DNA of 40,002 nucleotides, taken from IMG/VR virus record IMGVR_UViG_3300017917_003207, positions 1-40,002 of that record; one strand, given 5' to 3'. The translations under genes and the position numbers were made by a program. This DNA comes from a virus. The notes beneath the pieces are model-generated. The model did not search any database, was not told the DNA's origin, and saw nothing but the letters and a program-made list of their open reading frames with translations. Below, piece after piece: positions 5,109 to 37,214 of this stretch (positions are counted from its first letter, which is position 1; each line of letters opens with the position of its first letter).

Positions 5109-7331
5109 TTATACAATAGAAGGTCCTACTTTATCAACCACTTTAGAAGTTTTTTTGGTATTCTTCTCTGTGGCCATGTTAATGTTAACCAACGTATTTA
5201 ATGCTTTGTAGTTGGCTTTTTGCAGCTCTAATGCTTCTTTAGCAGTCATATTATACTGTGTCATTTGGGCATTTAGTTGTGCATATTGTGAGCTTGCTCC
5301 TGAACCTTCAGCATTGTAATCTTGTGCTTCCTGTCTGCTCAGTACTCGTTCACCCGCTTCCACATGTAATAGGCTAGTTTTAGGTTCAAATGGTAAACCT
5401 GTTTCACCGAAAGTACCTGTGGATCTTTTCTTGATGTCTTCTCCAGCAGCTCCTCCTATTACTCCAGATATACCTCCAACTAGAGCACCAATACCTGCAC
5501 CAAAAGCAGTACCAACACCTGGAATCACTGAACCTATAGTAGCACCTAATGCAGCACCCGATAGTGCAGAAGTTCCTACACCAGCTGCTTTGCCTGCTAG
5601 TGTATCTGATTGATATGCCATAGCAGTACCTCCAGCTACTCCTGCAGCCGATCCTATGCCTCCAACAACTTTTAATCCTGTACCAACCTTGCCTCCCAAT
5701 AAATCTCCTACTCCACCTGCTCCGCCCATGCCTCCACCAGCTAGTCGAATACCAGCAGCAGTACCTGCAGCTTGTATGGCTATTTGTCCGCCTTTATCTA
5801 GGAAGAATCCTCCAATGGTTTTACTCATGAACAGCAGAGCTTTGGTACCAGCACTTAAACCGTTGATCCCATCTGCTATATCTTTTACACCATTATTGAG
5901 TTGATTGCCTGTGGTTCCTATAAATTTTCCTAATACTGTGTAGAATCCTGTTTCAATCGATTGAAAACTTGAACTCAGTCTTTTGGTAGAATCTTGAAAC
6001 AGTGCAAGAGCTTTGGTAGCTTTGTCTTGTTCTGCTCTCTGTTCTTCGGTGACTTCTTTTAGATTAAGTTCGGCTGATGCAAGTTTAGTAACTTCGCTGT
6101 ATAGTCTTGCAAATCCTACTTGACCAGTCACTGCAACCCCAGCTAAAAATTTATTAGATCTTTGAGCAGCGTCTCTCAACATTATCATAGCCTGAGCAGA
6201 ATCTAAAGTACCTGCTGTCAATTGTTGTATGATGCCGCTGGCTTCTGGTATGTTCTGTACTAACATTCTTGCTGATTCAGTCACCGGAGCTCCTGAGTTG
6301 GCAATTAAATCTTGAAAACCTTCTTTTAATCCCGGTGCTAATTCACCAATAGATGCAGTGAATGCACTCAATCTTTGACCAGTTTCTTTACTCTGTGTGC
6401 CTAAGAATGCAGTGAATCTCTCGTTGGCCATCTGAGACTCTATCTGTTTGGCTAGTTGAGTTCTCTGTTGTCCTGTCAGTTTAGATAATTTGTCTAATTC
6501 TGTTCCTAAACTTTCTGCTGATTTTATTTGCTCTTGAGTTGAATCAGCAACAAAGGTACCTGTTCTTCTCTGTAGGTTTAGTGTGGTCAGTAACACATCG
6601 TTTAACTCGTCCACTGTGAATCCCAGTGGTCCTAAACGTTCAATACTGGTTCTTCTAAACTGTTCGCTGAGCTGAGAAAATCTTTTTGCTCCTAGAGTGC
6701 TGCTACCATAAAGAGCTGCTAGACTTTCACTGTTGGAAGAAATTAATTTAACAAAGTCTTGCAGTGGTAGAGCTGCACTGGCAGCAGTTTCTCTCAGTGT
6801 GAATAAATTCTGTCCAAACGATGCTCCCACATTGGACAGTGTGCGGAATGCATCTAGAGAAGTGTCAGCAAAATTACCAAAATTTTGTAGGCCGGTACCT
6901 ATGAGACCCAGTCGATCTTTGAAAGCACTGGTGAATTCTGTGATAGAACCTTTGCCTTCGTATGCAGCTTTGCCTAGTTTTTCTAAAACTTCAGCAGTGC
7001 CTGTGGCATTGTCTGCTTGTTTTTGAGCTGCAGTTTCGTTTAATCCTAACTGTCTATATAGGCTATAAAACCTATTGTTTAATCCTTTGGTGGCTTCGAG
7101 TTCTTTTCTTTTGGCATCTAATAAATTAGCAATGGTTTCGTTTAATTTTTTTTGATCCCCATCGTTTAACTTTAAATTTTTGGTTAAACTATTCAAAGAA
7201 TCATTGACTCTTTTTATCTGTGATGCACTGAGAATGGGTGCTTTACGCAGCTCGTTGATTAGTCTGGTAATTTCCTTGGCTTGATCTTGATTGGATTTGG
7301 CCAATATCCTCTGCAGTTCCTGTTCGTCCAT
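5109..7331 (-). CDS. Putative tail tape measure protein
   Basis: 740 residues. The N-terminal 130 or so are charged and helical (coiled-coil-like); the centre is long and alpha-helical with few aromatic residues. About 535-630 is rich in Gly/Ala with glycine-zipper patterns such as GSVIPGVGTAFGAGIGALVGG, a hydrophobic segment able to enter membrane. Near the end, LLHVEAGERVLSRQEAQDYN resembles the conserved C-terminal block of many tape measure proteins. It is the promoter-proximal gene of the head operon, with a TATAAATA late promoter on its strand about 60 bases upstream and AGGGG before the ATG. T4 gp29 (590 residues) has this role but shows no obvious similarity here. A large structural protein of another kind is the alternative. 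Confidence 0.6.
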   Translation of the reverse strand: MDEQELQRILAKSNQDQAKEITRLINELRKAPILSASQIKRVNDSLNSLTKNLKLNDGDQKKLNETIANLLDAKRKELEATKGLNNRFYSLYRQLGLNETAAQKQADNATGTAEVLEKLGKAAYEGKGSITEFTSAFKDRLGLIGTGLQNFGNFADTSLDAFRTLSNVGASFGQNLFTLRETAASAALPLQDFVKLISSNSESLAALYGSSTLGAKRFSQLSEQFRRTSIERLGPLGFTVDELNDVLLTTLNLQRRTGTFVADSTQEQIKSAESLGTELDKLSKLTGQQRTQLAKQIESQMANERFTAFLGTQSKETGQRLSAFTASIGELAPGLKEGFQDLIANSGAPVTESARMLVQNIPEASGIIQQLTAGTLDSAQAMIMLRDAAQRSNKFLAGVAVTGQVGFARLYSEVTKLASAELNLKEVTEEQRAEQDKATKALALFQDSTKRLSSSFQSIETGFYTVLGKFIGTTGNQLNNGVKDIADGINGLSAGTKALLFMSKTIGGFFLDKGGQIAIQAAGTAAGIRLAGGGMGGAGGVGDLLGGKVGTGLKVVGGIGSAAGVAGGTAMAYQSDTLAGKAAGVGTSALSGAALGATIGSVIPGVGTAFGAGIGALVGGISGVIGGAAGEDIKKRSTGTFGETGLPFEPKTSLLHVEAGERVLSRQEAQDYNAEGSGASSQYAQLNAQMTQYNMTAKEALELQKANYKALNTLVNINMATEKNTKKTSKVVDKVGPSIV

Positions 7332-7409: not shown

Positions 7410-8267
7410 ATGGTAGAAAACACAAACCCGTTAAAACGCTATTATAGACAGCCGCAGATCAGCATACGTTTGCCCAGCGGTGAAAAATACTATTCTGAGG
7501 CAGTGGTACAAAAGACCACCACAGGTGAACACCCTGTGCTGCCCATGACTGCCATGGATGAGTTGGCATTCCGTACACCAGACAGCATGATGAATGGTCA
7601 AGCCACAGTGGATGTAATTAAAAGTTGTATACCTACCATACAGGATCCATGGCAACTGGTCAATCATGACATCGACACTGTGCTGATTGCTATCAGAATT
7701 GCCAGCTATGGCGAGACCATGGATGTCACAGCAGGAGTGCCTGGAACCAATGAAACACAGACTCACACTGTGAACCTACCGCAGATGTTGGACACCATTA
7801 GACAGGAAAAAATCACAGATCACTGTGTGCTGCAGGATGGGTTGACTCTGCATATTGCTCCCCTAACCTACAAACAGATCACAGATGCACAATTAAAAAC
7901 ATTTGAACAACAGAGAATCTATGCACAGGTATCTCAGAGCAATCTCAGCGCAGAAGAAAAAACCAAACGTTTCACTGAGAGTTTTCGAGTGCTGAGCGAT
8001 CTCAACATCAGTCTATTGATCAATAATATTCAACGAATTCAACTGCCCACAGGAGAAACTGTGACTGACAAAGCAGCCATTTTAGATTTTATCAAAAATG
8101 CAGATGCTAAAATTGTTAGAGAACTGGAAAACAAACTGGGAGATATTCGTCAACAGGGTTCTATCAAACCTTTCAAAGTCAAAGCCACAGAAGAACAGAT
8201 CAAAGCTGGCGCTCCCGCAACCTACGAAGTGCCCATCACTTTTGATAACGCAAATTTTTTCGTATAA
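7410..8267 (+). CDS. 26: Baseplate hub assembly protein, gp26-like (T4 baseplate family)
   Basis: 285 residues. Landmarks are QISIRLPSGEKYY, a PVLPMTAMDELAFRTPD block and CIPTIQDPW, all typical of the T4 gp26/gp51 baseplate family (Pfam T4 base plate protein). T4 gp26 (208 residues) acts in building the central hub. The C-terminal half is helical and charged and ends in a short strand, ITFDNANFFV. The last codons contain AAATTTTTTC, a classic -1 slippery site, and a long open -1 frame without its own start follows, so a fraction of ribosomes probably makes a longer form. The gene has its own late promoter and is divergent from the tape-measure-like gene, the natural client if gp26 acts as a tail assembly chaperone. 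That role is inference. Confidence 0.88.
   Translation: MVENTNPLKRYYRQPQISIRLPSGEKYYSEAVVQKTTTGEHPVLPMTAMDELAFRTPDSMMNGQATVDVIKSCIPTIQDPWQLVNHDIDTVLIAIRIASYGETMDVTAGVPGTNETQTHTVNLPQMLDTIRQEKITDHCVLQDGLTLHIAPLTYKQITDAQLKTFEQQRIYAQVSQSNLSAEEKTKRFTESFRVLSDLNISLLINNIQRIQLPTGETVTDKAAILDFIKNADAKIVRELENKLGDIRQQGSIKPFKVKATEEQIKAGAPATYEVPITFDNANFFV
8252..8261 (+). promoter_or_regulatory. Putative -1 programmed ribosomal frameshift site in gp26
   Basis: In the gp26 frame the bases read A AAT TTT TTC. This contains two overlapping canonical X-XXY-YYZ heptamers, A-AAT-TTT and T-TTT-TTC, three bases before the gp26 stop. Slippage by -1 from either continues for 76-77 codons to the stop at 8489. Only a weak 4-bp stem follows closely (ATAA 8264-8267 with TTAT 8273-8276), so no strong stimulatory structure is evident. 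Confidence 0.7.
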
Positions 8268-8491
8268 AGCTCTTATCGCTCTCGGAATCTGACCTCATAA
8301 AATATCTAAAAGATCTTGAAAATGAAGGTAAAAGTATCAAACATGAGCTGTTTAAAATCTGTTGGTACATGCGAGGTGGAGTTACCTATCAAGAAGCACT
8401 GGCACTGAGTCCATCGGATCGCGATATAGTGTCTCGTATAGTTAAAGACAATTTAGACGTTACTAAAAAAACCGGACAGCCATTCTTTTAA
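8261..8491 (+). CDS. Frameshift-dependent C-terminal extension of gp26 (gp51-like domain)
   Basis: In the -1 frame relative to gp26 the sequence is open from within gp26 to TAA at 8489-8491. It encodes about 76 residues beginning RIKLLSLSESDLIKYL and ending DNLDVTKKTGQPFF, with a central YMRGGVTYQEALALSP block. The strongly patterned helices and the GQPFF end look like a real protein domain, resembling short gp51-like baseplate proteins next to gp26 in relatives. There is no ATG, GTG or TTG in this frame before an internal ATG at 8369, which would remove half the domain. Expression therefore most likely needs a -1 shift on AAATTTTTTC, giving a fusion of about 360 residues. Re-initiation at a rare start is the alternative. 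Confidence 0.7.
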   Translation, partial: RIKLLSLSESDLIKYLKDLENEGKSIKHELFKICWYMRGGVTYQEALALSPSDRDIVSRIVKDNLDVTKKTGQPFF

Positions 8492-8508
8492 CAGTTGCAA
8501 TCCTAACA

Positions 8509-8527
8509 AGATGTGCTACGCACATCT
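8509..8527 (+). repeat. Perfect hairpin, 8-bp stem
   Basis: AGATGTGC and GCACATCT pair perfectly around a TAC loop, 18 bases after the stop of the gp26 extension frame. There is no following U-run, so a classic terminator is unlikely. It may protect the 3' end of the gp26 messenger or belong to a larger RNA structure. Confidence 0.7.
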
Positions 8528-8579
8528 GAAACTTCGCTTGCGCTCGTTTCCTTTTAGATCTGGATACAATGATTGTTAA

Positions 8580-8601
8580 GCGCGATGCGATAGCATCGTG
8601 C
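8580..8601 (+). repeat. Hairpin, 9-bp stem with one G-U pair
   Basis: GCGCGATGC pairs with GCATCGTGC (one G-U) around a GATA loop. It is very GC-rich for this genome and lacks a terminal U-run. Confidence 0.7.
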
Positions 8602-8606
8602 GCCTT

Positions 8607-8686
8607 ATGTGCTAGATGAGCAGTCACAATTCGGCTATTGCTAGCCGAATCGACCGAACCTGCATATGTGCTGAGTTCGCAGTCAC
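8607..8686 (+). repeat. Imperfect 21-base direct repeat (ATGTGCT-N6-GCAGTCAC)
   Basis: ATGTGCT, six variable bases and GCAGTCAC occur at 8607-8627 and again at 8666-8686, with a third ATGTGCT at 8511-8517 inside the first hairpin. The two full units flank the 8629-8650 hairpin. Conserved ends with a variable centre suggest protein-binding or structural elements rather than chance. Confidence 0.6.
8629..8650 (+). repeat. Perfect hairpin, 9-bp stem
   Basis: ATTCGGCTA and TAGCCGAAT pair perfectly around a TTGC loop. It is the strongest simple hairpin in the window and lies between the two copies of the 21-base repeat. Confidence 0.75.
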
Positions 8687-8786
8687 CATACATCGCTGCT
8701 GTCGCCGGGCGGTTGTGCTGTACCCGTTAGCTCATTCATTACAACGCGAACCCACATGGTCTTTGTATGATAATCCCACGTGGATC

Positions 8787-8815
8787 TGGAGTTGGATCTG
8801 TTTCCCAGAGCTCCA
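8787..8815 (+). repeat. Imperfect hairpin
   Basis: TGGAG (8787-8791) pairs with CTCCA (8811-8815), extended by a T-G and a T-A pair, then an internal loop and an inner CTG/CAG stem around TTTCC. A GGATCTG direct repeat (8782 and 8794) overlaps it. Confidence 0.45.
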
Positions 8816-8942
8816 TCCTTTTTGCCTGTTGCGTCAAGTGATTCGCCGCCCACGCTAATGGGAGTAGTTCACTGTTTTACCAAAGACGCTATAGAGCCTA
8901 ATAGAAATTGTGATTATTTTTAGTGTGCCTTTTTCACATGTA

Positions 8943-8948
8943 TATAAT
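8943..8948 (+). promoter_or_regulatory. Putative sigma70-type -10 (TATAAT) for the nuclease gene
   Basis: A perfect TATAAT with a poor -35 candidate (TTAGTG, 8920-8925, 17-base spacing). Predicted transcription start is near 8955, inside the 8944-8961 inverted repeat. This makes the ATG at 8960 an unlikely start and favours 8993. The hexamer is common in AT-rich DNA. Confidence 0.45.
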
Positions 8949-8961
8949 ATGCGTATATTAT
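8944..8961 (+). promoter_or_regulatory. Inverted repeat over the nuclease gene promoter (operator-like)
   Basis: ATAATAT and ATATTAT form a perfect 7+7 inverted repeat around GCGT. It overlaps the -10 element and predicted start of transcription, a position suited to repressor binding; as RNA it would be only a weak AU hairpin. Confidence 0.45.
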
Positions 8962-8992
8962 GATTGGCAGTTTCTTGAGTTTAAATACTGAC

Positions 8993-9424
8993 ATGCAGTG
9001 GATTTATAGAAATGAACCAGTAACCGAATTACCAAAAGACTGTGTGGGATTCGTGTATCTAATTACCAACATAGAAAATGGTCGCATGTATGTGGGTAAG
9101 AAATTATCCAGATTCAAAACTACGCGATATAAAATGCACACGCAAAAAAACGGAAAAAAAGTACGCAAAAAAATTAAAGGCGCTGTGGACAGTGATTGGC
9201 AAGATTATTACGGCAGCAGTGATCAATTAAATCGAGATATAGAAACACTAGGTAAGGACCGATTTCGTAGAGAAATACTTTATTATTGTCGTAGCAAAGC
9301 AGAATTGAATTATGTAGAAGCTCGAGAACAATTTGCTAGAAAAGTGTTAGAATCAGACCAGTACTATAACGGACATATTCGTGTGCGAGTGCATGGATCG
9401 CTTATTATCGATAAAAATCTATGA
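8993..9424 (+). CDS. GIY-YIG family endonuclease
   Basis: 143 residues from the chosen start, MQWIYRNEPVTELPKDCVGF. The GIY-YIG core is visible as VYLIT (21-25) and MYVGKK (32-37), followed by a basic segment and DWQDYYGSSDQLNRDIETLG, FRREILYYC and a helix NYVEAREQFARKVL holding the expected catalytic Glu. Such small GIY-YIG nucleases are widespread in T4-like phages, as homing-type or host-DNA-cutting enzymes; which applies here is unknown. An in-frame ATG at 8960 would add 11 residues, but it lies inside an inverted repeat at the likely transcription start, and relatives begin with M-x-W-x-Y. The stop overlaps the next gene by four bases (ATGA). Confidence 0.85.
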   Translation: MQWIYRNEPVTELPKDCVGFVYLITNIENGRMYVGKKLSRFKTTRYKMHTQKNGKKVRKKIKGAVDSDWQDYYGSSDQLNRDIETLGKDRFRREILYYCRSKAELNYVEAREQFARKVLESDQYYNGHIRVRVHGSLIIDKNL

Positions 9425-9733: not shown

Positions 9734-9928
9734 CTAGGCTGCTGCGTTTTTTTCAGCGTTTTTAGTTTCTTGGATTTCTTTTCTTCTTGCTTTAACTAGT
9801 TTTCCTAATTCAGCAAGAGCTTTTCTGGCTCTAGTTCCTGAAGCTTTAACGCCTTTTTCAGTGAACTTTTGGTTCTCTTCAGAGTAAGTCTGAATAGCTG
9901 CCATAATCGATTCATGTGTATTTGACAT
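9734..9928 (-). CDS. Small histone H1-like (Hc1-like) DNA-binding protein
   Basis: 64 residues, with about a fifth Lys or Arg. The core EKGVKASGTRARKALAEL followed by GKLVKARRKEIQ closely resembles the chlamydial Hc1 and related bacterial/phage histone-like family, where a basic helical pair binds and compacts DNA; the C-terminus is Ala/Lys-rich. A near-perfect Shine-Dalgarno (AAAGGAG) lies 7 bases before the ATG and a sigma70-like promoter with a palindrome lies upstream, suggesting strong, separately regulated expression, perhaps early. It is convergent with the nuclease operon and lies downstream of gp46 on the same strand. In infection it could organise phage DNA or displace host nucleoid proteins; that is inference. 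Confidence 0.7.
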   Translation of the reverse strand: MSNTHESIMAAIQTYSEENQKFTEKGVKASGTRARKALAELGKLVKARRKEIQETKNAEKNAAA

Positions 9929-23273: not shown

Positions 23274-26200
23274 ATGGTAGACAAACCTTTAGATAGTCAA
23301 TCAAATTATGACGTTGTTACTGATGAAAAAGGAGTAACACTTCGTAGATCAGTTGCACATCTACCTGCCTTTTACAGAACTGATGTCAACGAAAGATTTT
23401 TAAATACCACATTAGATCAATTAATTCAACCAGGCAGTTTGGTTAGATTAGATGGATATGTTGGTAGAAAAGATTGTTATACTAGATTAATTACAGACAA
23501 ATATATTGAATCTAGTATTGAAGACAGAGATAATTATCAATTAGAACCTACAGTAACATACACAGACAAAGACACCTCTTCAATAAATCCAGAAGATCAA
23601 GTAAAATTTACTGCTACCTATGATGATTATATCAATCAAATAAAATTCTTTGGAGGCGATGTTACTAATCATGATAGACTTAATAAAGAAAAAGTTTATT
23701 CATGGGATCCGGCTATAGATTTCGACAAATTAATCAATTACAGAGAATATTATTGGATGCCGGAAGGACCAAATCCTATCCTAATACCTAACAATGGAAC
23801 CAACACAGTTTCAGAAATTGCAGTAACACATACAGGACAATCTGCATATAATTTTGGAATATATCCAGGAGTGAACAATCCTTCTATTACTTTAAGCAAG
23901 GGCAATACTTACAAATTTATTTTAGATACAGCAGGTCATCCATTCTATATCATGACCGAACCATTCAAAACCGGTATAGCAGAAGATGGCAGTACTTCAG
24001 TTATATATTCTACAGGAGTGTCAGGCAACGGAACAGAACAAGGCACATTAACTTTTACTGTACCAACAGGTGCTCCTGATGTTTTATACTATCAATGCGG
24101 AAATCATGCAGACATGCATGGTGTATTCACAATAAGAACCATAAGTGAAACGACCAAGATTGATGTTGAACACGAAATTATCGGAACAAAAAATTACACT
24201 TTAAAAACAGGTACCAAATTATCAAATGGTATGAAGGTAAGATTTGAGGATAATGTTGCTAATTCTGCTTACGCTAGAAAAGAATTTTATGTTGAGGGTG
24301 TGGGATCATCGATCACACTAACAGATACAGCAAACTTAATTGTGACTGGGTCGTATACCGAAGAATCTACAGAACCATATGATGATGTACCCTATGCTGA
24401 TAGACCATATTCAGTTAGTTTTTATAGACCAGTAACTCCTGATTATATCACTATCAAAAGAGACAGTATCGATGGTAATGCATGGAGCAGATACAATAGA
24501 TGGTTTCATAAAGCAGTGATAGAAGCCACGGCTATAGAAAATGGATACACACCAATTTTACTAGAAACAGACAGAGCCAAAAGACCTATTATAGAATTTG
24601 ATTCTGGATTATCTTTATTCAATCACGGAACCACTGCTAAAAAATCAGTAGCATTAATTGATACAGTGACCAAAGATGTTTTTTCAAAAATGGTCAACCA
24701 AACAGGATATATTGTGGATGGTGTACCTTTGAGAGATGGTATGAGACTATTGATTACTGCAGATACAGATCCTTTAGTTAATAATAGAATTTATGTCGTT
24801 AATTTTGTTACTATAGCAGGATCGGAAGTAACCACTCTAAGATTGACTGAAGACTCGGATGCTCTACCATTAGATGGAGATGCAGTAACAATTGAATTAG
24901 GAACAATTAATCAAGCAAAAACATTTTATTACAGTACCAGTCAAAAAGCATGGATAGAAGGACAGAGTAAATTTTCTGTTAATCAACCACCTTTATTTTC
25001 TTTATTTGATGAGAATCACAAAGCATTCAATGATAATGAAGTGTATCCAAACTCTACTTTTACAGGATCTAAACTTTTTGAATATAAAACTAGTTCAATG
25101 TCGCCGGTAGATCCTATATTAGGATTACAAATAAAGTATAACACAATAAAAAATGTAGGAGACATTGTTTTTACTTCTGATTTTGCTACAGAATCTTTTC
25201 AATATAATATTAATGATAAATCTTACTCAAAAAACTTTAATACAGGTCATGCTCATCAAGTACTTGGCAGAGATAATCATGTAAGTAGATGTGGGTGGAT
25301 CGAAAGAAAAGAAGAAAGTAGACAAAGAGTTATAAGAATATTCACAGTAACCAGAGACGAATTAAAATTATTTCCTGTGGATGTTTTTGAAAATAGCAAA
25401 TCATTATCTGATTTATCAGTAACTGTAGATGTTAATCACATAACTCAAAATTTAGGAACAGATTATACTTTAGTAGATGGGTTAACTTACAAATATGTAA
25501 AATTTACTAAAGATTTAAATGTAGACGATTTAATTAAATTATGTTGTTACAGCTCAGCAAAAAAAATTCCTAGTAAAGGTATATATGAAGTTCCTGAAAA
25601 CATATCAGTAAATCCATTTAATGAACAATTGTCAAATTTTACATATGGACAAATATTAAATCATTTACACGACATTAATGAAAAAAATGTTGAAATGATT
25701 GGAGATACTCCAGGAAGTAGCAATTTAAGAGATATAGGAGATGTAAGATTAGAAGGAGGATCTATAATTCAGCATGGTTCGGCTCTGCCACAAGCTATGT
25801 TCTTATTAATAGATCAAAATGCTAATGCTATTAAATCGATAGAATATTGTAATAATGAATATCAAAGATTTAAAGAAAACTTTTTGGCCAATACCCAAGG
25901 AACAACACACGAAGGATTGGTATCAGATAGAGTTGATGAGATAATCAAAAATATTTCTAACAATAAAAATACAAGTTTTCCTTTCTATTATGATGATATG
26001 ATAGGTTATGGAGAAAAACTTACTGTGAGAAATTATACAGTGCAAGATCCTGAAGAAATAGAATACGCTATTGATTCACAGTTTGATGTCACTGTGCCTA
26101 GCACAAGAGCAGTATATGTTTATCTCAATGATGAAATATTACTTTTAGGATACGATTATACTTTTAGCAAAGAATCAGACGGTGTAACCATAACAACCGT

Positions 26201-29200
26201 TTTAAATGCCGGAGATAAAATCACAATTAAAGATTACGAAAATACTGCAGGAAGTTTTGTGCCTCCAACACCAACAAAACTAGGAATGTATCCAAAATTT
26301 AAACCAGAAAAAATTATTGATAATACTTATAGAACACCTGTAGAAGTTATTGTAGGACACGATGGTAGCAGAACTATTGCTTTTGGAGATCATCGCGATG
26401 ATTTATTATTAGAATTAGAAAAAAGAATCTACAATAATTGTAAAACAACTTTTAATACAGAATTATTATCAGAAGATGATGTAAGACCTGGAGTATTTAG
26501 AACTACAGAATACAACAACAGTGAAGTTAACAACATATTAAGTTTAGATTTTTACAACTGGGCAGGACAGAACGGTATAGAATATCAAAATAATTTAAAT
26601 TATGATGAAAATGATTATTTTACTTTTAATTATAGTAAGAATAAAAATATCATAAATGGTGAAGCTCTTCCAGGGTATTGGAGAGGTATATTCAAATATT
26701 TCTATGACACAGATAAACCACACACTCATCCATGGGAAATGTTAGGTTATAGTGAACAACCAACATGGTGGGAAGACACCTATGGACCAGGACCTTACAC
26801 AGCGGGCAATGAATTATTATGGAATGATCTAGCAGCAGGATATGATACAGGTCTAGAAGAGACTGTAAACAAATATAAAAGACCAGATTTATTAAATTAC
26901 GTTCCTGTGGATGAACAAGGCAATTTAAAATCACCCATAGCTATAGGATTGATAGATCAGTATCAAAATCTTGGAGTTAATGAAAAATGGAAATTTGGAG
27001 ATCAAGGGCCAAGTGAAACTGCATGGCGTAGAAGCAGCCAATATCCTTTCAGTATATTGAAATTATTAGCACTAACTAAACCAGCAAAATTCTTTGGATA
27101 TTTTTTAGACAACAGTAGATTAGGAAAGAATGTAGCAGGAAATTATGTTAACATTGAAACAGAAGTGGCACCAACACTTAAATCTACCACATACTATTTA
27201 GAAACAACTGGCGGATCCGAAATAGGAATCACTGCTGGATATCAACCTTTTATAGTTAACTATCTAATTAAGAATGGATTAGATCCTGCTCCTTTCTTCT
27301 ATGATAAATTAAAAAATCTCAATGTACAATTGGCATATAAATTGGGAGGATTCACTGATAAAGAAAATTTAAAAGTTTTAACAGACAGCGTAAGTCCAGG
27401 ATCCACATCAGGGTCTCAATTTATACCTAACGAAAACTATAAAGTTTTATTTAGAATCAGTAATCCTGTTAGGGATTATGACTATTCAGGAGTGTTGGTT
27501 GAATTAAATTCTAACGTCACTGGTGATGGCAGCACATTAGAAGGTGGTTACAAAGTTATTGGTTATAACACAATCAAACCTTATTTTAGAATATTAAATC
27601 CGGTAGAAAATAAAAATGCTCATTCAATCACGGTTGGAAACAGCAGTGCAATTGTTTACAACGATTGGAGCGAAAATGAAACTGTTATTCCTTACGGCAC
27701 TGTGTTCAAAACTGTTCAACAAGTGATTAATTTTTTAATTGGATATGGAAAATATTTAGAATCTCAAGGATTTATATTTGACAAATTTAGTAACGAAATA
27801 AGAGAAATAAACAATTGGGAAACCAGTGCTAAAGAATTCTTATATTGGACTAGACAAGGATGGGCTCCAGGTTCAGCAATAACATTGAGTCCAGGTGCTG
27901 CTGGATTTGTTCTAGCCACAGATAACAGTGTTATCAGCAAATTTCAAAACTCTTTGGGACAATATTCAGTTTTAGATTCTGCTGGTCGCGCCATAGAAAC
28001 TCAATATATTTCAACCAAACGTGTTGGTAACAAATTCTCTATTGCTATAAAAAATACTGAAGCAGGCATTTATAATATTTCAATGAATGCTGTACAAAAA
28101 GAACAGATTATACTTTTTGACAACATCACAGTGTTTTCCGACATAATATTTGAATTAGTCACAGGATTCCGTCAACAGAGATTAAAACTTGTAGGATGGA
28201 AAACAGGTGACTGGAATGGCGATTATTATTCTCCTGGATTTGTATTTGATGAAGCTAAAGTGGATAGATGGGTTGCAAATACAGATTATCAAATAGGAAA
28301 CACAGTAGAATATGCTAATGGTTTCTATGTGGCCAAACAAAATCATAATTCTGGTACAAAATTTGATTTTGAAAAATGGACCAAGAAAAAATCTAAACCA
28401 TCAGCTCAATTAATACCTAACTTTGATTATAAAATTTCTCAATTTAATGATTTTTATAATTTAGAAACCAATAATTTTGACGAAACACAACAAAGACTAG
28501 CTCAACATCTTACAGGATATCAATCTAGATCATATTTAGAAAATCTTTTCTTAAATGATGTTTCTCAATACAAATTCTATCAAGGATTTATCAGAGAAAA
28601 AGGCACACAAAATGCTATCGACCGATTGGTTAAAGCCAAATTCTATGGAGAAAATATCAATTTAAAAGTTTATCCTGAGTGGATGATAAAAGTTGGAGAG
28701 TTTGGAAATTTAGACGGTAATAAATCAATACAAATTACACTATCTGACAATGAATTCACAAGTAATGCTCAAAGTATTGAATTATTAAATGATGATAATG
28801 ATACTAAAGATTACACTAGATCATTGTCTGTAACCGCTGATAACTTTTATTCTAAACCCTTAGAGTACACAGCATCGGAAACATTCAAACAATATGATTA
28901 TACTCAAGCTGGATATGATAGAGAATTTGTTCAAAAATATAAAACTGCGGGATATGTAAGAATATCTGACACTCAACACACTGCATTCAATGAAACAGAT
29001 CTATTAAACTTAGACGTTAATGGAATCAATAACAAAGATTTAATATGGATAGCAAAAAAAACTAATAATGATTGGGACGTGCAAAGAATAACCTATACTG
29101 GACTTAATATTATCTCACTGAAACCTATAAACAACAACACTCAAGTGATTTTAGAATTCAATGGAGTACATGGTTTAGTGATAGATCAATACATAGCGAT

Positions 29201-32200
29201 AAGCAACAGTCAATTTTCTCTTCTAAATAAAGTTTATCAGGTTAAAAACGTTATAAATTCCACATCTGTGCTAGTTAATTTTGCCAATGCTTCGACCATC
29301 AGCAGATCTTTTAGTGAAATAGACGAGTCAACGCTGTCAACGTATGGTAACCTATATCGTTTTATAAGTGTAAGATTGTCTTCTTTAGACAATGTCAATG
29401 ACATTCTACCGTATAACGAATATCAAATTGCAGACACCGTTAATCAGTTGCCTGGAGATAAAATTTTTGTAGATAATGAGGGATCTAATTGGAAAATTTA
29501 CGAAAAAATTGATCCTTATGAAACTTTTAGAATAGGATCTCCAGACACAGAAGACAATCAAGAATTTGGTTACAAAACAATTGCTAGATCTGATGGAAAA
29601 TTTCTTATAATTTCTGCTCCTGGCAGTAGAGGAGCAACAGCTCAAGGATCGATATATTTCTTTAGTAGAAGTGCAAATATTCCAGGATTAGCATTTTCAC
29701 TTACTAACAGTTATACCATGGATGACAGTACCACAGGTACAGGTAGATTAGGTCATAGCTTATCTATGAGTACAGATGAAAATTTTGTTGTAGCAGGAGC
29801 GCCACTTGCTAATATTTTATCAGCAGATGGCAGCACAAGAATTTTAAAAGCTGGTTTAGTAAAATTATTCATATGGGAACCCATAACAAAATCTTATAAT
29901 GAATTTACAACAATTAAACCGTCGGATGATAGCTCATCGGCAAATATAAATTTTGGTTGGTCTCATGCATTAGCAGAACCAATCACAGACAGTGACAAAT
30001 ACACTAGACAAAAATATCTTTTGGTTGGTGCTCCAGGATATGCTAACGACACAGGAATAGTTTATCTATATACATATACTCCTGTTGAAGACAGTACATT
30101 TGCAGCATGGACACAAGATAATAGTGTTATTAGTAGTCAATCTGGAATCAATAAAAGATTTGGTCATAGAATGGCTATTAATGACAACGGTGACATATTA
30201 GCAGTATCTTCAGAAAGTCCAGATGATGCTGGTATGGTAGAAATTTTTGTTAGAACCAGTCCAAGCAATGATGACAGTACTGTTTTAGGATTTACTCATG
30301 TGCAAACACTCAAAGGAGTATCAGCTGACGACAGCACATTAAACACAGCATTTGGAGAAGGATTAACCATGAGCAAAGACGGATCAACATTAGTCATCTC
30401 CGCCCCAGGTAGAGACAATCTGTCACAGGCAGATGCAGGTGTTGTTTACATTTATGAATGGAATGCAGACGGATCAACTAACACTTATACTTTACAACAA
30501 ACAATCTATGCTCCAGAAACTGCAACCAACATGCAGTTTGGATCCACAGTGCATCTTAATCATGATGCCAATAGATTAGTTATAGGAGCAGAAAAATTTG
30601 CAAATAATCGAACAGTAAAATTTGATAATGGACTAACCACATTTGATTTACAAGATACACAAATAGTGGATCTTAACATAGGATCCGGAGGAGTGTTTAC
30701 AGCAACCAAATACAATAATAATTTTGTTTTAGATGGCAAGTTAATAACTTCTAATGTATCAGCCAATGATGATTTTGGTAGATCTGTTTTTGTAATCAAT
30801 GACAGTGTATTTGTGGGTGCACCAGGAGATGACACTAAATTTTCTGATAATTCTACTCGTGAAAATGATGGTATGGTTGCTGTGTTTGATTTAACAACAT
30901 CAGGATCATACAGTTGGAAAGTAGCACAAGAAGAAGAATCATTAATTGATGACAGATTAATAGATTCGGCTTTTATTTTTGATAGAGCAGAACAAAAAAT
31001 CAAATCATATATTGATTATTATGATCCTATCAAAGGTAGAATATTAGGCATAGCCGACAGAGAAATCAATTATAAAACTGAATGGGATCCAGCAGTTTAT
31101 AATTTAGGCACAGAAGAAGTTAATGTAAAACCAACCATGTCTTGGGCCGAAGAACACATAGGAGAAGTTTGGTGGGATTTGAGCAAAGTTCGATGGATAT
31201 GGTATGAACAAGGCAATCAAGAGTATAGAACAAAAAATTGGGGCAAACTTTTTCCAGGCAGTGAAATTGACATTTATGAATGGGTAGAAACCACTCTATT
31301 GCCATCAGAATGGAATCAGTTGGCAGACACACCAATGGGATTGAGTCAAAAAGTATCAGGAAAACCATTATATCCAGATAATACTGTGTTTACATTGAGA
31401 CAGAAATACGATTCTCGTCTAGACGGATTTGTAAATTATTACTATTATTGGGTAAAAAATAATGTTTTCTTACCAGATACTGCAAAAAGTGTTGCTACTA
31501 GAAAAAATACTACCGGTTACATATCCAATATAATAAGCAATCCTAGAGGATCAGGAATTAGACATTTTGCAGTGTCCGATACAAACAAATTGATAGCATT
31601 TAATATTAAAAATGATATCATCAATGACAACACTGTATTAAATGTTACCTACAAAGACACAGTTAAAGAAGGTGATGCTCATTATGTTTGGAAACTGATC
31701 AAAGAAGGAGACAAAAATGATGCTCCTAACGCACAGATTGAAAAGAAATGGTGGGACAGTTTAATTGGTTCGGACGAAGCAGGCAATGAAGTGCCGGATA
31801 TATCATTGCCGTTAAACCAAAGGTATGGTAATAAAGTTAGACCAAGACAGAGCTGGTACGTGGATAGAATTGCTGCTTTAAAAGAAATTATAGATTATGT
31901 TAATTCGGTATTGGCAAAAAATCAATTGGCAGATAATATTAGATATGACAATTTAAATTCAGCTGAACCTGAACCAAATGCCATATCTGGAGAATGGGAT
32001 GACACAGTAGAAACCTATGACGATTTAACCTATATTGATACCAGAGATATTAGTGGCACAACAAATATATTAGTAAAGAATGATCAAACATTTAGTAATG
32101 GTTTTTGGGCTATCTACAATTGGAATGGATCTGAATGGGTTAGAACCAAATTACAAACTTATAAAACCAGTGCTTATTATGATCGTGTTGATTGGTATAA

Positions 32201-35200
32201 TGAATCATTCGATTATGATGCAAGCATTGAAAAACAATTAAATTATCAGTACGAATTAGACGCATTATCTTTAGAAAATGGCCAGTATGTTAAAGTTTTA
32301 ACAGCTGATACAGGTGGTTGGAAAATATTCGAAAGCACCACAGAAGGATTTAAAAATATTGCTACACAAAATGGTACTATTCAATTAAAAACTTCTCTGT
32401 ATGATTATTCGATTGATAATACAGGATTTGATGGAGAAGATGCTTTTGATGTCAATTTCTTTGATACTGAACCCAAATTAGAATTAAGAAAAATATTAAC
32501 AGCTATAAGAGATGACTTATTCATAGGAGATTTAAAAGTAGAATACAATAATATTTTCTTTATAGGTTTAAGAAAAGTTTTAGAGCAACAGAAATATGTT
32601 GACTGGTTAACAAAAACAGCATTTATTAATGTGTCTAACATTTTAAGAGAATTAGATCAAAGAAAAAGTTATAGAGTTACTACAGAAGATTATGTTGAAG
32701 ATTATATTAACGAAGTAAAACCATATCATACCAAAATTAGAGAATATCGATTGGGTTATACCGGTTTAGATACTGAAGACGGTATCTACACAGATTTTGA
32801 CTTGCCTGCTTTCTATGATGGAGATATTATTAGAAATGTAGATGTTTCTAATGATGTTGCAGTATTGAGCACATATCCATATCGTTTTTGGAGAGACAAT
32901 TATAAAAAATATGTGGACACTATCACAGTGATAGACGGTGGTAGCGGATATGTTACTGCTCCCACAGTTACTCTAGTAGGTGGTACTACAAAGACAGTTG
33001 GACCATTCACAGTGTTAGGAACCAGCACACAGGGTGCTTCTTCCGGGCAATATGGATATTTTTATCCTCTATATACTGCCAAAGTGGATGCTGACCTTGC
33101 TGACTCACAAGCAGGAGGATCTGGAAACAGTGAAATATTCACATTCAGTGAATTCTCGGGTATTGAATTTTATATGCCTATCACAGGGCAGAATATTGCT
33201 CAAACAGATAGACCAGAAGGTTATGAAGTTTACACTCTGTCTGATGTGACACAAGCCACAGCTAGAGCAGTAATTAAAGAAGGATCAGTGGTTAGAATAG
33301 TGGTATTAACTCCTGGAAAAAATTATACTTCAACGCCAAGAGTGGTTATAACAGGTGGAGGAGTCAACGGTAATACACCTGCTGACACAGCAAGAGCATA
33401 TGCAAATCTTAGAAATGATGTTGTGAGAGACATTAGTACCACAATCAAATTTGACCGAGTTCAATCCACAGCCACAGTGTTACAATGGACCAGCAATACC
33501 ACTTATGCTTATAATGATTTAGTTAGATACGACAATAAACTTTATAAAGTTATTGCAACATATACAAGTACAGAAAATTTTGATGATGGAATAACGAATC
33601 TTTTAAGATTAAGAGGAGACGAACCATATATCACAGCAGCAGAAAGAACATTGGGATTATATGCTCCAGATACTGGTATGCCAGGCAATGAGTTATCTCA
33701 AGTGATGACAGGAGTAGACTATGGTGGAGTAATGGTCACAGGTTTGGCTTTTGATAGTGGTCAAGGTTGGGATAGAGCTCCATGGTATGATTTGCCATGG
33801 GATGGTTTTGGTTTAAGCAGAGTTAAAGTATTCTACGGAGATGGATCTACAACTGATTTTACTTTTGATTTTGCTCCGCAACCAACAGATGTATACACAG
33901 TTTATTTTACTGATATCAGTGATTCATCAGCTCAATATCCAGCAGCCACTGCCAATGTTAATAGAGTGAGACAGAGAACTCAAGTGTTAAGAGGAGATGG
34001 CACTACTAAAACATTTACCATAGTGGGAGATGATGGAAATCCTGCTCCTGCAAACACAGTTATTGAGTTAATACCTTTTGATGATGATGGAGTTTTGACA
34101 CCTACTGATGATAAGACTTTGGATACTTTGATCAGCGGAGGATTATTTAAATCAGCATTAGGAGTATCTCCTAGTGATATTATTGTGGAAGGAGATGCTT
34201 TTATTACACCTGAAACTAGTTACGCTCCAGAAGAAAATTTACCTGGCAGTATTTTTGATACAGTGGATATTCGAGTTTACACTGCTCCAACATCTGGAGT
34301 ACCTTTTATTATACAAAAAAATTATATCGGAGATGGAGCAACTACAACATTTTCAATAGGACAATTAGCAGGCACTCAATCATCTGTGATAGTTTCTTTA
34401 GACGGAGCAACACAAACATTAAATTCTGAATACACAGTAGATATTCAAAACAAAACAATTACATTTGTGTCAGCACCGGCTGTTAGCAGTAAAATTTCTA
34501 TAAAAAGTTTTGCTATATCTGGCAGCAATTATATGGTTCTAGATACATTTGTTGGCGATGGCTCCACATATTCTTTTGCAACTAAGAGTAGAGAAACTTA
34601 TCAGTTAGACAGTTCAATGAGTCAATTATTTGTCACTGTGGACGGCATTCCTACCACAGATTACACTTATACAGTAAACAATAGAGATATAACTATAAGT
34701 TTACATACAGGGGATGGATCCACAGCAAATCCTCCAGCTGTGGGTACAAGTATACAGGTTGCATCATTCAATCAACCTGCAGGCAGCGGAAGAGCATACG
34801 CTGAAATACGATCACAAGAAATTCTGTATGATGGTAGCACAGACACTTATACATTATCGTATCCTCCAGGTTCGATAGGACCTTATTCGAGTTTAACTTT
34901 ATTAGAACATCAAGGAAAAATTTTAAGAGGACCAGATAACACTTATTATTTAGGTGATGGAACTAGCAATACTTTTTCATTTGCTGGTTATGCAGGATCT
35001 ACAGAAGATGATAGCACATCAACAGGCTATGTGGATACAAAATTTGGTGAAAAAACCGGAATTCTTAATGCACCTAGCACAATAGATTCGTGGGTTTATA
35101 CAGAATATGACAGTGCTTGGTATATGGCAATCACAAGAGACGAAGTTTCAGGAGAACTAGCTACTGCCAAATATTCTTTGGTTCACAATGGCTCAACTGC

Positions 35201-37214
35201 CGTTGTAAGTACTTCATCTATCACTCAAACTGGAATAGCTGAACACATCACTGTTGATGCTTCGAAAGCTACAGGTATAGTGTCATTGATAGGTACAGGT
35301 AATTCTGTATTAAATTCTGTTTCTTGGTATAGAATAGGATTAGGTCTTAATACAGTGGATACGACAGGAGCTCAGGTAGTAAAACATAGGCTACCTTTTT
35401 TAGATTCTGTTACTGTACCACTTGAAGCTCCGGGTTGGGATAAAAATCTTCATAGAGGAGCCAAATATTTTATATCGGTAGATGCAATTAATACAGCAGA
35501 AACTAGTAATATAGAGGCTCTAATAGTGCATGATGGAACAAATGCATATGTTACTTCTTATAATATAGTGAATACAGGACCAACGGACATGGTTACAATT
35601 TCAGGTGATATAGTTGCAGATAAAGTAAGATTATTAATAGCATCTAACGTAGGTGATTGTAGAGTTAGAGCTTATAGAATATTACTTCGAGATGGAGATA
35701 TTAGTGATGGAAGTAATTTTGTTGGCTCAACCACAATTTCGAGTGGTGAAACCACAATAGATAGTTTTCAAACTTCTGATTATGTTGGAGCTCATTACAT
35801 TGTGACAGCGTATAATGCAACCGAAGCATCAGCATCAATATCAGAAGTAACACTGGTAGCAAATTCTTCTGAAGTGTATACTAACACTGCACCGCATCTA
35901 AGTACTAAAGGATCAGATCAAGTATCATTCAGTGGGTCAATCGCTGGAAGTACAATATCTTTCAAAGCAAGTTCAACATCAGGATCAAATACCGTTGTTA
36001 GTGTTTATAGATTTGGATTATTACGTAATCCTGGCGGAGCAGTAATTGATCCTAGCAAAGTAAGAGTATACTTAAATGGTATTAAAAAAGATCAATATAC
36101 TGATTATAGTGTTAACATTGATGCAAAATCGGTTACATTCAATGACGCTCCAGCAAGTTCTGATTTAATTGCAATATCCACACTGGTAGGAACACATTAT
36201 TTTGATAAAAATGATCAAATAGTTTTACAACCAGACAACATGGCAGTGGATGGTATTACTCTTGCTGAAGGAGACACTATCACAGCAACAACATTTAACA
36301 ATGCTGTGGGAATGAATCAACGCAGAGAAGATTTTAAAGGCAACGATTCTAGAGAATATTATCTGTTTCAAACTCCTCTAAACAATGACTATGTGTTTGT
36401 TTGGGTCAATGGAGAAAATCTAGTGCAAGGTTTTGATTGGATAATAACAGGTAATAAGATTACAATTACTAGATCATTAACAATCAACGATAGAGTTGAT
36501 GTGATGTATTTTGTTACTGAAGGTAATAATTTTTCAACTGGTTTTAGAATATTTAAAGACATGCTCAATAGAACATTTTACAAGAGAATTAGCCAAACCA
36601 ATACAACAACATTGGCAGCGGATTTATCAATAGATGATAAAACAATCACTGTAACAGATGGCAGTGTGTTAAGATCTGTAGACGGTAGTACATTATTGCC
36701 TGGAGTAATTTTTATTGACAATGAAAGAATAGAATATCTTTATAAAGATGGCAATACATTATCTAATATTAGAAGAGGCACACTAGGAACTGGAATTAAA
36801 AATTATGTTGCAGGAGTAGAAGTGGTTGATGCATCTGGACAACAAACTATTCCTTATGCTGATACCATATACACTAAAAAACACATTGCTGATGGATCAA
36901 CCACAGCATTTATTTCATCGCAATCTGTAAGTTCTCCTCATGAGGTTGATGTGTTTGTGGGAGGGAGAAGATTACCATATCTCAATGAAGACAGCAGTAC
37001 CAATTACACAGTGAACACATGGGATGGTAGTTCAGCCAATATTATATTAAGCGAGCAACCTGCTGCTGGAGTAGAAGTAAAAATTATACAAAAACGTGGA
37101 CAAATATGGTATAATAGGGGAGAAACAACTGCTGCTGATGGTAAAGGATTAGGTAAATCCAACACAGCACAAGCCAAATTCATAGCTGGAGAACCAACAA
37201 ATGTACCTGAATAA
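23274..37214 (+). CDS. Giant baseplate wedge protein (4646 residues) in the gp7 position
   Basis: One uninterrupted frame of about 14 kb. The N-terminus (LPAFYRTDVNERFLNTTLDQ, IQPGSLVRLDGYVGRK, NYQLEPTV, YSWDPAIDFDKLINYREYYW) is that of the large marine T4-like virion protein that follows gp6; T4 gp7 has 1032 residues. Modules seen: cupredoxin-like domain (about 200-290; His222, Cys275, His278, Met281); carbohydrate-binding-like segments (about 1665-1705 and 3405-3440); a seven-blade FG-GAP propeller (about 2098-2545); GGSGYxxxP beta motifs (about 3220-3400); GDGST-type beta repeats (about 3518-4614) with three Tyr-Arg-ended repeats (about 3944-4252). The N-terminal part presumably holds the wedge; the later modules probably project outward to touch the cell. 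A fusion of gp7, gp8 and fibre functions is plausible but inferred. Confidence 0.85.
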   Translation: MVDKPLDSQSNYDVVTDEKGVTLRRSVAHLPAFYRTDVNERFLNTTLDQLIQPGSLVRLDGYVGRKDCYTRLITDKYIESSIEDRDNYQLEPTVTYTDKDTSSINPEDQVKFTATYDDYINQIKFFGGDVTNHDRLNKEKVYSWDPAIDFDKLINYREYYWMPEGPNPILIPNNGTNTVSEIAVTHTGQSAYNFGIYPGVNNPSITLSKGNTYKFILDTAGHPFYIMTEPFKTGIAEDGSTSVIYSTGVSGNGTEQGTLTFTVPTGAPDVLYYQCGNHADMHGVFTIRTISETTKIDVEHEIIGTKNYTLKTGTKLSNGMKVRFEDNVANSAYARKEFYVEGVGSSITLTDTANLIVTGSYTEESTEPYDDVPYADRPYSVSFYRPVTPDYITIKRDSIDGNAWSRYNRWFHKAVIEATAIENGYTPILLETDRAKRPIIEFDSGLSLFNHGTTAKKSVALIDTVTKDVFSKMVNQTGYIVDGVPLRDGMRLLITADTDPLVNNRIYVVNFVTIAGSEVTTLRLTEDSDALPLDGDAVTIELGTINQAKTFYYSTSQKAWIEGQSKFSVNQPPLFSLFDENHKAFNDNEVYPNSTFTGSKLFEYKTSSMSPVDPILGLQIKYNTIKNVGDIVFTSDFATESFQYNINDKSYSKNFNTGHAHQVLGRDNHVSRCGWIERKEESRQRVIRIFTVTRDELKLFPVDVFENSKSLSDLSVTVDVNHITQNLGTDYTLVDGLTYKYVKFTKDLNVDDLIKLCCYSSAKKIPSKGIYEVPENISVNPFNEQLSNFTYGQILNHLHDINEKNVEMIGDTPGSSNLRDIGDVRLEGGSIIQHGSALPQAMFLLIDQNANAIKSIEYCNNEYQRFKENFLANTQGTTHEGLVSDRVDEIIKNISNNKNTSFPFYYDDMIGYGEKLTVRNYTVQDPEEIEYAIDSQFDVTVPSTRAVYVYLNDEILLLGYDYTFSKESDGVTITTVLNAGDKITIKDYENTAGSFVPPTPTKLGMYPKFKPEKIIDNTYRTPVEVIVGHDGSRTIAFGDHRDDLLLELEKRIYNNCKTTFNTELLSEDDVRPGVFRTTEYNNSEVNNILSLDFYNWAGQNGIEYQNNLNYDENDYFTFNYSKNKNIINGEALPGYWRGIFKYFYDTDKPHTHPWEMLGYSEQPTWWEDTYGPGPYTAGNELLWNDLAAGYDTGLEETVNKYKRPDLLNYVPVDEQGNLKSPIAIGLIDQYQNLGVNEKWKFGDQGPSETAWRRSSQYPFSILKLLALTKPAKFFGYFLDNSRLGKNVAGNYVNIETEVAPTLKSTTYYLETTGGSEIGITAGYQPFIVNYLIKNGLDPAPFFYDKLKNLNVQLAYKLGGFTDKENLKVLTDSVSPGSTSGSQFIPNENYKVLFRISNPVRDYDYSGVLVELNSNVTGDGSTLEGGYKVIGYNTIKPYFRILNPVENKNAHSITVGNSSAIVYNDWSENETVIPYGTVFKTVQQVINFLIGYGKYLESQGFIFDKFSNEIREINNWETSAKEFLYWTRQGWAPGSAITLSPGAAGFVLATDNSVISKFQNSLGQYSVLDSAGRAIETQYISTKRVGNKFSIAIKNTEAGIYNISMNAVQKEQIILFDNITVFSDIIFELVTGFRQQRLKLVGWKTGDWNGDYYSPGFVFDEAKVDRWVANTDYQIGNTVEYANGFYVAKQNHNSGTKFDFEKWTKKKSKPSAQLIPNFDYKISQFNDFYNLETNNFDETQQRLAQHLTGYQSRSYLENLFLNDVSQYKFYQGFIREKGTQNAIDRLVKAKFYGENINLKVYPEWMIKVGEFGNLDGNKSIQITLSDNEFTSNAQSIELLNDDNDTKDYTRSLSVTADNFYSKPLEYTASETFKQYDYTQAGYDREFVQKYKTAGYVRISDTQHTAFNETDLLNLDVNGINNKDLIWIAKKTNNDWDVQRITYTGLNIISLKPINNNTQVILEFNGVHGLVIDQYIAISNSQFSLLNKVYQVKNVINSTSVLVNFANASTISRSFSEIDESTLSTYGNLYRFISVRLSSLDNVNDILPYNEYQIADTVNQLPGDKIFVDNEGSNWKIYEKIDPYETFRIGSPDTEDNQEFGYKTIARSDGKFLIISAPGSRGATAQGSIYFFSRSANIPGLAFSLTNSYTMDDSTTGTGRLGHSLSMSTDENFVVAGAPLANILSADGSTRILKAGLVKLFIWEPITKSYNEFTTIKPSDDSSSANINFGWSHALAEPITDSDKYTRQKYLLVGAPGYANDTGIVYLYTYTPVEDSTFAAWTQDNSVISSQSGINKRFGHRMAINDNGDILAVSSESPDDAGMVEIFVRTSPSNDDSTVLGFTHVQTLKGVSADDSTLNTAFGEGLTMSKDGSTLVISAPGRDNLSQADAGVVYIYEWNADGSTNTYTLQQTIYAPETATNMQFGSTVHLNHDANRLVIGAEKFANNRTVKFDNGLTTFDLQDTQIVDLNIGSGGVFTATKYNNNFVLDGKLITSNVSANDDFGRSVFVINDSVFVGAPGDDTKFSDNSTRENDGMVAVFDLTTSGSYSWKVAQEEESLIDDRLIDSAFIFDRAEQKIKSYIDYYDPIKGRILGIADREINYKTEWDPAVYNLGTEEVNVKPTMSWAEEHIGEVWWDLSKVRWIWYEQGNQEYRTKNWGKLFPGSEIDIYEWVETTLLPSEWNQLADTPMGLSQKVSGKPLYPDNTVFTLRQKYDSRLDGFVNYYYYWVKNNVFLPDTAKSVATRKNTTGYISNIISNPRGSGIRHFAVSDTNKLIAFNIKNDIINDNTVLNVTYKDTVKEGDAHYVWKLIKEGDKNDAPNAQIEKKWWDSLIGSDEAGNEVPDISLPLNQRYGNKVRPRQSWYVDRIAALKEIIDYVNSVLAKNQLADNIRYDNLNSAEPEPNAISGEWDDTVETYDDLTYIDTRDISGTTNILVKNDQTFSNGFWAIYNWNGSEWVRTKLQTYKTSAYYDRVDWYNESFDYDASIEKQLNYQYELDALSLENGQYVKVLTADTGGWKIFESTTEGFKNIATQNGTIQLKTSLYDYSIDNTGFDGEDAFDVNFFDTEPKLELRKILTAIRDDLFIGDLKVEYNNIFFIGLRKVLEQQKYVDWLTKTAFINVSNILRELDQRKSYRVTTEDYVEDYINEVKPYHTKIREYRLGYTGLDTEDGIYTDFDLPAFYDGDIIRNVDVSNDVAVLSTYPYRFWRDNYKKYVDTITVIDGGSGYVTAPTVTLVGGTTKTVGPFTVLGTSTQGASSGQYGYFYPLYTAKVDADLADSQAGGSGNSEIFTFSEFSGIEFYMPITGQNIAQTDRPEGYEVYTLSDVTQATARAVIKEGSVVRIVVLTPGKNYTSTPRVVITGGGVNGNTPADTARAYANLRNDVVRDISTTIKFDRVQSTATVLQWTSNTTYAYNDLVRYDNKLYKVIATYTSTENFDDGITNLLRLRGDEPYITAAERTLGLYAPDTGMPGNELSQVMTGVDYGGVMVTGLAFDSGQGWDRAPWYDLPWDGFGLSRVKVFYGDGSTTDFTFDFAPQPTDVYTVYFTDISDSSAQYPAATANVNRVRQRTQVLRGDGTTKTFTIVGDDGNPAPANTVIELIPFDDDGVLTPTDDKTLDTLISGGLFKSALGVSPSDIIVEGDAFITPETSYAPEENLPGSIFDTVDIRVYTAPTSGVPFIIQKNYIGDGATTTFSIGQLAGTQSSVIVSLDGATQTLNSEYTVDIQNKTITFVSAPAVSSKISIKSFAISGSNYMVLDTFVGDGSTYSFATKSRETYQLDSSMSQLFVTVDGIPTTDYTYTVNNRDITISLHTGDGSTANPPAVGTSIQVASFNQPAGSGRAYAEIRSQEILYDGSTDTYTLSYPPGSIGPYSSLTLLEHQGKILRGPDNTYYLGDGTSNTFSFAGYAGSTEDDSTSTGYVDTKFGEKTGILNAPSTIDSWVYTEYDSAWYMAITRDEVSGELATAKYSLVHNGSTAVVSTSSITQTGIAEHITVDASKATGIVSLIGTGNSVLNSVSWYRIGLGLNTVDTTGAQVVKHRLPFLDSVTVPLEAPGWDKNLHRGAKYFISVDAINTAETSNIEALIVHDGTNAYVTSYNIVNTGPTDMVTISGDIVADKVRLLIASNVGDCRVRAYRILLRDGDISDGSNFVGSTTISSGETTIDSFQTSDYVGAHYIVTAYNATEASASISEVTLVANSSEVYTNTAPHLSTKGSDQVSFSGSIAGSTISFKASSTSGSNTVVSVYRFGLLRNPGGAVIDPSKVRVYLNGIKKDQYTDYSVNIDAKSVTFNDAPASSDLIAISTLVGTHYFDKNDQIVLQPDNMAVDGITLAEGDTITATTFNNAVGMNQRREDFKGNDSREYYLFQTPLNNDYVFVWVNGENLVQGFDWIITGNKITITRSLTINDRVDVMYFVTEGNNFSTGFRIFKDMLNRTFYKRISQTNTTTLAADLSIDDKTITVTDGSVLRSVDGSTLLPGVIFIDNERIEYLYKDGNTLSNIRRGTLGTGIKNYVAGVEVVDASGQQTIPYADTIYTKKHIADGSTTAFISSQSVSSPHEVDVFVGGRRLPYLNEDSSTNYTVNTWDGSSANIILSEQPAAGVEVKIIQKRGQIWYNRGETTAADGKGLGKSNTAQAKFIAGEPTNVPE
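23906..24150 (+). other. Cupredoxin-like domain within the giant protein
   Basis: Translation shows YKFILDTAGHPFYIMTE, then FTVPTGAPDVLYYQCGNHAD followed by MHGVF. His222, Cys275, His278 and Met281 occupy the order and spacing of a type 1 copper site (His, then Cys-x2-His-xn-Met). The beta-rich surroundings fit. Similar CxxH modules occur in other marine phage virion proteins, where copper binding is unproven. Confidence 0.65.
29565..30905 (+). other. Seven-bladed FG-GAP beta-propeller within the giant protein
   Basis: Seven successive units start with F/LG and carry a hydrophobic strand plus a GAP-like turn: FGYKTIARSDGKFLIISAPG, LGHSLSMSTDENFVVAGAPL, FGWSHALAEP...LLVGAPGY, FGHRMAINDNGDILAVSSES, FGEGLTMSKDGSTLVISAPG, FGSTVHLNHDANRLVIGAEK and FGRSVFVINDSVFVGAPGDD. 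Asp/Asn-rich loops suggest calcium sites as in integrin alpha propellers. Seven repeats make a closed propeller. Confidence 0.75.

Follow-up and report, generated by a model that had tools for sequence, protein, structure and literature searches.

The production of short and long tail assembly chaperones by -1 frameshifting is established in lambda and many other phages, and the genes for these chaperones usually lie directly upstream of the tape measure gene. The lambda gpG/gpGT and P2 gpE/E+E' chaperones have other slip sequences and another gene order than the locus described here. Closer to it are the T4-like phages, for which a study by Vladimirov, Gautam and Davidson (2022, Virology 566:9-15) reportedly identified the chaperone genes, naming 26 and 51 in its abstract and describing frameshifting as retained by several of the T4-like groups. 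A review of T4 counts gp26 and gp51 among the hub assembly chaperones and describes gp51 as required but not present in the particle (PMC3004832). Some T4-like phages are described in PMC10885494 as having one short and one fused longer gene in place of frameshifting, and PMC12846349 presents poly-T slip sites as known in TAC-N genes of T4-like phages. The latter source also covers the TAC locus of the Vandenendeviridae and Andersonviridae (phage Adele), which resembles the present one in its conserved poly-T -1 site ending TAC-N and in an extension that is usually misannotated as a separate gene, but differs in its GTTTTT motif and belongs to other phage families (PMC12846349). A frameshifted gp26 chaperone is, in short, not new in T4-like phages, and the locus described here is a further case, very clean and well conserved.

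The window analysed is a stretch of 40,002 nucleotides from a marine virus of bacteria (IMG/VR record IMGVR_UViG_3300017917_003207). Its gp26-like gene (positions 7410-8267, plus strand) codes for a protein of 285 residues that matches PF12322 (T4_baseplate; E 1.9e-11, 44.5 bits, above the gathering cut-off of 24.5) and the baseplate hub family phrog_150 (E 5e-14). Read in the zero frame from 8250, the 3' end of the gene is GCA AAT TTT TTC GTA TAA, with the stop codon of the short form at 8265-8267. As proposed in the initial annotation, these final codons contain two overlapping slippery heptamers, A_AAT_TTT (8252-8258) and T_TTT_TTC (8255-8261), and both keep to the codon register of the gp26 zero frame. 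A TAA at 8246-8248 bounds the -1 frame on its upstream side. This frame is open from 8249 to 8488 and ends with the TAA at 8489-8491; it adds 77 residues counting from the second F (8258-8491), in agreement with the 76-77 further open codons previously noted. A slip at either heptamer would yield the identical predicted joint, ANFF-RIKLL. The first ATG, GTG or TTG of this frame is the ATG at 8369, so that the earlier statement that no start precedes this position holds for the window, but not for some relatives, which do carry start codons. Among 20 other open reading frames of the window that were checked, only one (9734-9928, minus strand) carries a heptamer in register within ~40 nt of its end; it was rejected as a second frameshift gene, its -1 frame closing 20 nt past the stop and giving no real extension.

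Searching IMG/VR with the gp26 protein as query yielded 69 loci on viral contigs, 50-94% identical to it. The sequence CAAATTTTTTCG is invariant at the gene end in all 69 and in the window, and T_TTT_TTC is accordingly found in 70 of 70 marine loci. The frame relation is also identical across the 69 relatives, with a -1 frame that is already open ahead of the site and stays so until exactly 224 nt past the stop (two loci, L016 and L026, were considered as exceptions with a shorter extension and discarded, because their contigs just end there). Synonymous pair differences, analysed codon by codon in 58 distinct genes, have an observed/expected ratio of 0.89 gene-wide, but of zero at the four slip codons GCA/TCA, AAT, TTT and TTC; no other column for which more than 500 pairs are expected is free of synonymous variation. 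All 57 distinct complete relatives carry the two heptamers at this position, A_AAT_TTT without synonymous variation, whereas no other in-register position of gp26 has a heptamer in more than 7 of them. The A at 8252, which is required by the first heptamer only, is fixed in the relatives as well. This shared placement is not due to chance, and the alignment of related loci that had been suggested as a check has borne out the conservation of slip site, frame relation and extension, together with strong synonymous constraint.

Every complete relative has the same 77-residue extension, open to the same point, and over 57 distinct sequences it contains neither indels nor stops. Counted in the -1 frame, the first, second and third codon positions have a diversity of 0.28, 0.14 and 0.54 in these sequences, a pattern resembling that of gp26, which indicates that the extension evolves as coding sequence under purifying selection. 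The marine extension is homologous to the extensions of jumbo phages (E 1.4e-21). At the junction, the extension alignment shows no variation at F1, R2 and L5, and translation must therefore enter the extension from gp26.

In T4, gp26 and gp51 both match PF12322 (E 9e-64 and 4e-52) and, by this homology, are paralogues without and with a C-terminal extension, respectively. Genes 26 and 51 are separate and lie on opposite strands, and the end of T4 gene 26 (AAA GAG TTC TTT GAG TTA CTA TAA) has no slip heptamer. When profiles were compared, the fused cyanophage product aligned with T4-type gp51 over the full length, its extra C-terminal stretch included (probability 97.7, E 1.5e-12), and the marine fusion aligned with the cyanophage one through the junction (probability 91.5, E 9e-7). 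The direct profile comparison of the marine fusion with T4 gp51 was below detection, so the link runs via the cyanophages; the isolated marine extension gave no profile match to the C-terminus of either the cyanophage product or T4 gp51, the relationship being seen only with full-length fused profiles. From this homology, the -1 frame of the window is assigned to the C-terminal domain of a predicted long form equivalent to gp51. Both systems would thus have homologous short and long proteins, gp51 aligning with the fused cyanophage product, but T4 has two divergently transcribed genes without a slip heptamer at the junction, whereas the window has one frameshifted gene. These relationships speak for a common origin of T4 genes 26 and 51 from a single frameshifted gene. 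The initial annotation had called such a frameshift not standard for gp26/gp51, which is correct for T4 itself, with its two divergent genes, but not for other T4-like groups, whose frameshifting has already been published. Its proposal of a gp26/gp51 pair acting as short and long chaperones agrees with the T4 paralogy, the listing as hub chaperones and the alignment of the cyanophage fusion with gp51; the window, on the other hand, has no separate gp51 gene.

The structure model of the gp26-like protein (mean pLDDT 83) strongly matches predicted T4-like baseplate hub assembly proteins, with E-values down to 8e-23, and matches some annotated tail assembly chaperones weakly (Molivia, probability 1.00 but E 0.018). 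A fold search of the PDB with this model gave no match with E <0.5, and a search of solved structures by sequence returned nothing relevant. The neighbouring gene at 5109-7331 (minus strand) codes for a 740-residue product that matches the tail length tape measure family phrog_794 (E 1.2e-6), as expected from the divergent tape-measure-like neighbour noticed initially, and a divergent virion structural gene is found at the same place in PA5oct, RaK2, 121Q, XaC1 and GAP32. The product of 5109-7331 is probably the client of the chaperone. This gene is adjacent to gp26 but divergent, while the tape measure gene of HTVC008M is on the same strand, two small ORFs later. With the T4-like TAC genes reportedly described in 2022, the present locus shares the gp26 family, the poly-T -1 site at the 3' end and, by prediction, the short and long forms; it differs from them in that its clade adds the overlapping A_AAT_TTT and in that the tape-measure-like gene is divergent, not downstream.

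An in-register T_TTT_TTC followed by a -1 extension is also found at the end of gp26 in all eight jumbo isolates considered (Atu_ph07, Phosso, PA5oct, RaK2, Vibrio phage 2.275, 121Q, XaC1 and GAP32). The same heptamer, again with a -1 extension, ends gp26 in both cyanophage isolates, Synechococcus phages S-RIM8 and S-WAM1, and in all 80 cyanophage-like contigs examined, and it is present in three 121Q-like loci. T_TTT_TTC is the conserved core of the slip site. The site reads T_TTT_TTT in HTVC008M, Melnitz-1 and Ochrobactrum phage OC, and T_TTT_TTG in RHph_N34. A_AAT_TTT is absent from the jumbo and cyanophage isolates, only T_TTT_TTC being kept beyond the close clade. The zero-frame stop is shifted further downstream in XaC1, GAP32, RaK2 and the 121Q-like loci L183/L184, with the slip site unmoved; L183 and L184 had been taken to lack the heptamer until T_TTT_TTC was found 40 nt before the stop. 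The present locus adds a widespread clade of marine phages, in which conservation is nearly perfect, to the range of the gp26 frameshift. In the annotations of S-RIM8, HTVC008M and Melnitz-1, the extension appears as a separate gene with an internal start codon, named "baseplate hub assembly catalyst" or "hub assembly". Likewise, three annotated cyanophage-like gp51 genes with an internal start (L080:3505-3642, L082:3753-3890 and L083:2250-2393) are the 3' part of a gp26 frameshift extension, indicating that what is annotated as a small "gp51" gene in the cyanophages examined is no gene of its own but a frameshift extension. The -1 extension of gp26 is retained in Ackermannviridae and related Vibrio phages (L088, L089, L090; Vi01, BX-1, K351), although they lack a canonical heptamer; in BX-1 and K351 an ATG follows closely on the gp26 stop, and phages of this type may reach the long form by another route.

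It is very probable (about 0.92) that programmed -1 frameshifting makes short and long tail assembly chaperones (TAC-N and TAC-NC) from the gene of the window. Site, register, codon-level selection, coding extension and homology are features of the gene itself, and we infer from them slippage, its rate and the chaperone function. Most ribosomes would end at 8267 and release the 285-residue short form, the TAC-N equivalent of T4 gp26, while a fraction would slip back one base at AAATTTTTTC (8252-8261), where tRNA-Phe could re-pair from TTT/TTC onto TTT/TTT; in the marine clade, the preceding AAT-TTT pair would offer a second chance to slip. Translation by the slipped ribosomes would continue up to 8491 in the -1 frame and give a long form of ~360 residues, joined as ...NFF-RIKLL..., which would be the TAC-NC equivalent of T4 gp51. 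Together, the two forms would serve the tape measure protein and the baseplate hub as their tail assembly chaperone, and T4 would obtain the same pair from two duplicated genes, 26 and 51.

Alternatively, the -1 frame could be a separate gene, translated by reinitiation or from a non-standard start just past the gp26 stop into a free protein made of the C-terminal domain. The -1 frame of Atu_ph07, Phosso, 121Q, YB07 and D527 has an ATG that coincides with the stop or follows it closely, and in roughly half of the marine loci the extension has its first start codon, a TTG, at codon 5. In the others, however, it may be as late as codon 38, as in the window, and there is no start codon anywhere in the extension frame of PA5oct and none for 71 nt in that of RaK2. 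No clear Shine-Dalgarno sequence was found ahead of gp26 itself in the marine clade, so the test for an independent start of the extension is uninformative, and a missing Shine-Dalgarno is no argument against a separate start. The freezing of the 12-mer slip sequence at the codon level, the conserved junction residues FR and the in-frame fusion of the same domain in T4 gp51 nevertheless make a separate gene very unlikely.

The programmed ribosomal slip also has to be weighed against two readings that place the frame change elsewhere. Runs of six T are known to make some polymerases slip, and the frame could be changed by RNA polymerase stuttering on the T-run and not by the ribosome; the frozen codons, however, match heptamers in codon register, including the A at 8252, which is outside the T-run, and the established route for tail assembly chaperones is ribosomal, so that transcriptional slippage appears even less probable than a separate gene. 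The homopolymer-rich site is, moreover, a usual place for sequencing errors, and the true gene might be one continuous frame, misread or decayed, but the same site and frame relation recur in 70 contigs and in finished isolate genomes, and purifying selection acts at the codon level on both sides of the site. By this conservation, an error or a decayed gene is to be regarded as already refuted.

No conserved downstream pseudoknot, stem-loop or other stimulator of frameshifting was detected in the marine clade. The alignment gave no consensus fold and no pairs over 45-120 nt downstream, the single-sequence fold downstream of the slip site has a z-score of 0.20, with no signal of structure, and z-scores against triplet-shuffled sequences range from 0.0 to 0.45. 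An exhaustive search for helices of 5-8 bp found none that covaries, returning essentially pairings between T-runs and A-runs plus two weak upstream helices. Codon 11 of the extension is TCT in all 56 relatives with Ser at this position and CCT in the one with Pro, although other conserved Ser positions are mostly AGY or TCA. Together with the next codon, this invariant TCT forms the element TCTGA (8288-8292) and creates a +1 stop, TGA, that 56 of 57 relatives share, while the next most common +1 stop is found in 23. The signal of the marine clade could tentatively be seen as a structure-free pair of tandem heptamers, both selected, plus the frozen TCTGA as a guard stop in the third frame or as some other short element, a reading that we consider possible and rather doubtful. 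If true, tandem heptamers with a TCTGA guard stop would constitute a distinct signal design for chaperone frameshifting; no earlier description of the tandem heptamer and frozen TCTGA was found. Codons 7-9 of the extension are also unusually constrained.

The extension is followed by a non-coding stretch of 468 nt (8492-8959) with strong local hairpins, ATTCGGCTA/TAGCCGAAT among them, and two 25-nt segments that resemble each other. Its fold z-score is only -1.3, and it has no Rfam match and no tRNA. At 8960-9424, close downstream of the gp26 gene, there is a SegE-type GIY-YIG protein (PF19835, E 4e-34), and in T4, segE likewise lies in the broader vicinity of genes 25, 26 and 51. Further along the window, a single reading frame of 4646 residues extends from 23274 to 37214, very large for a phage protein.
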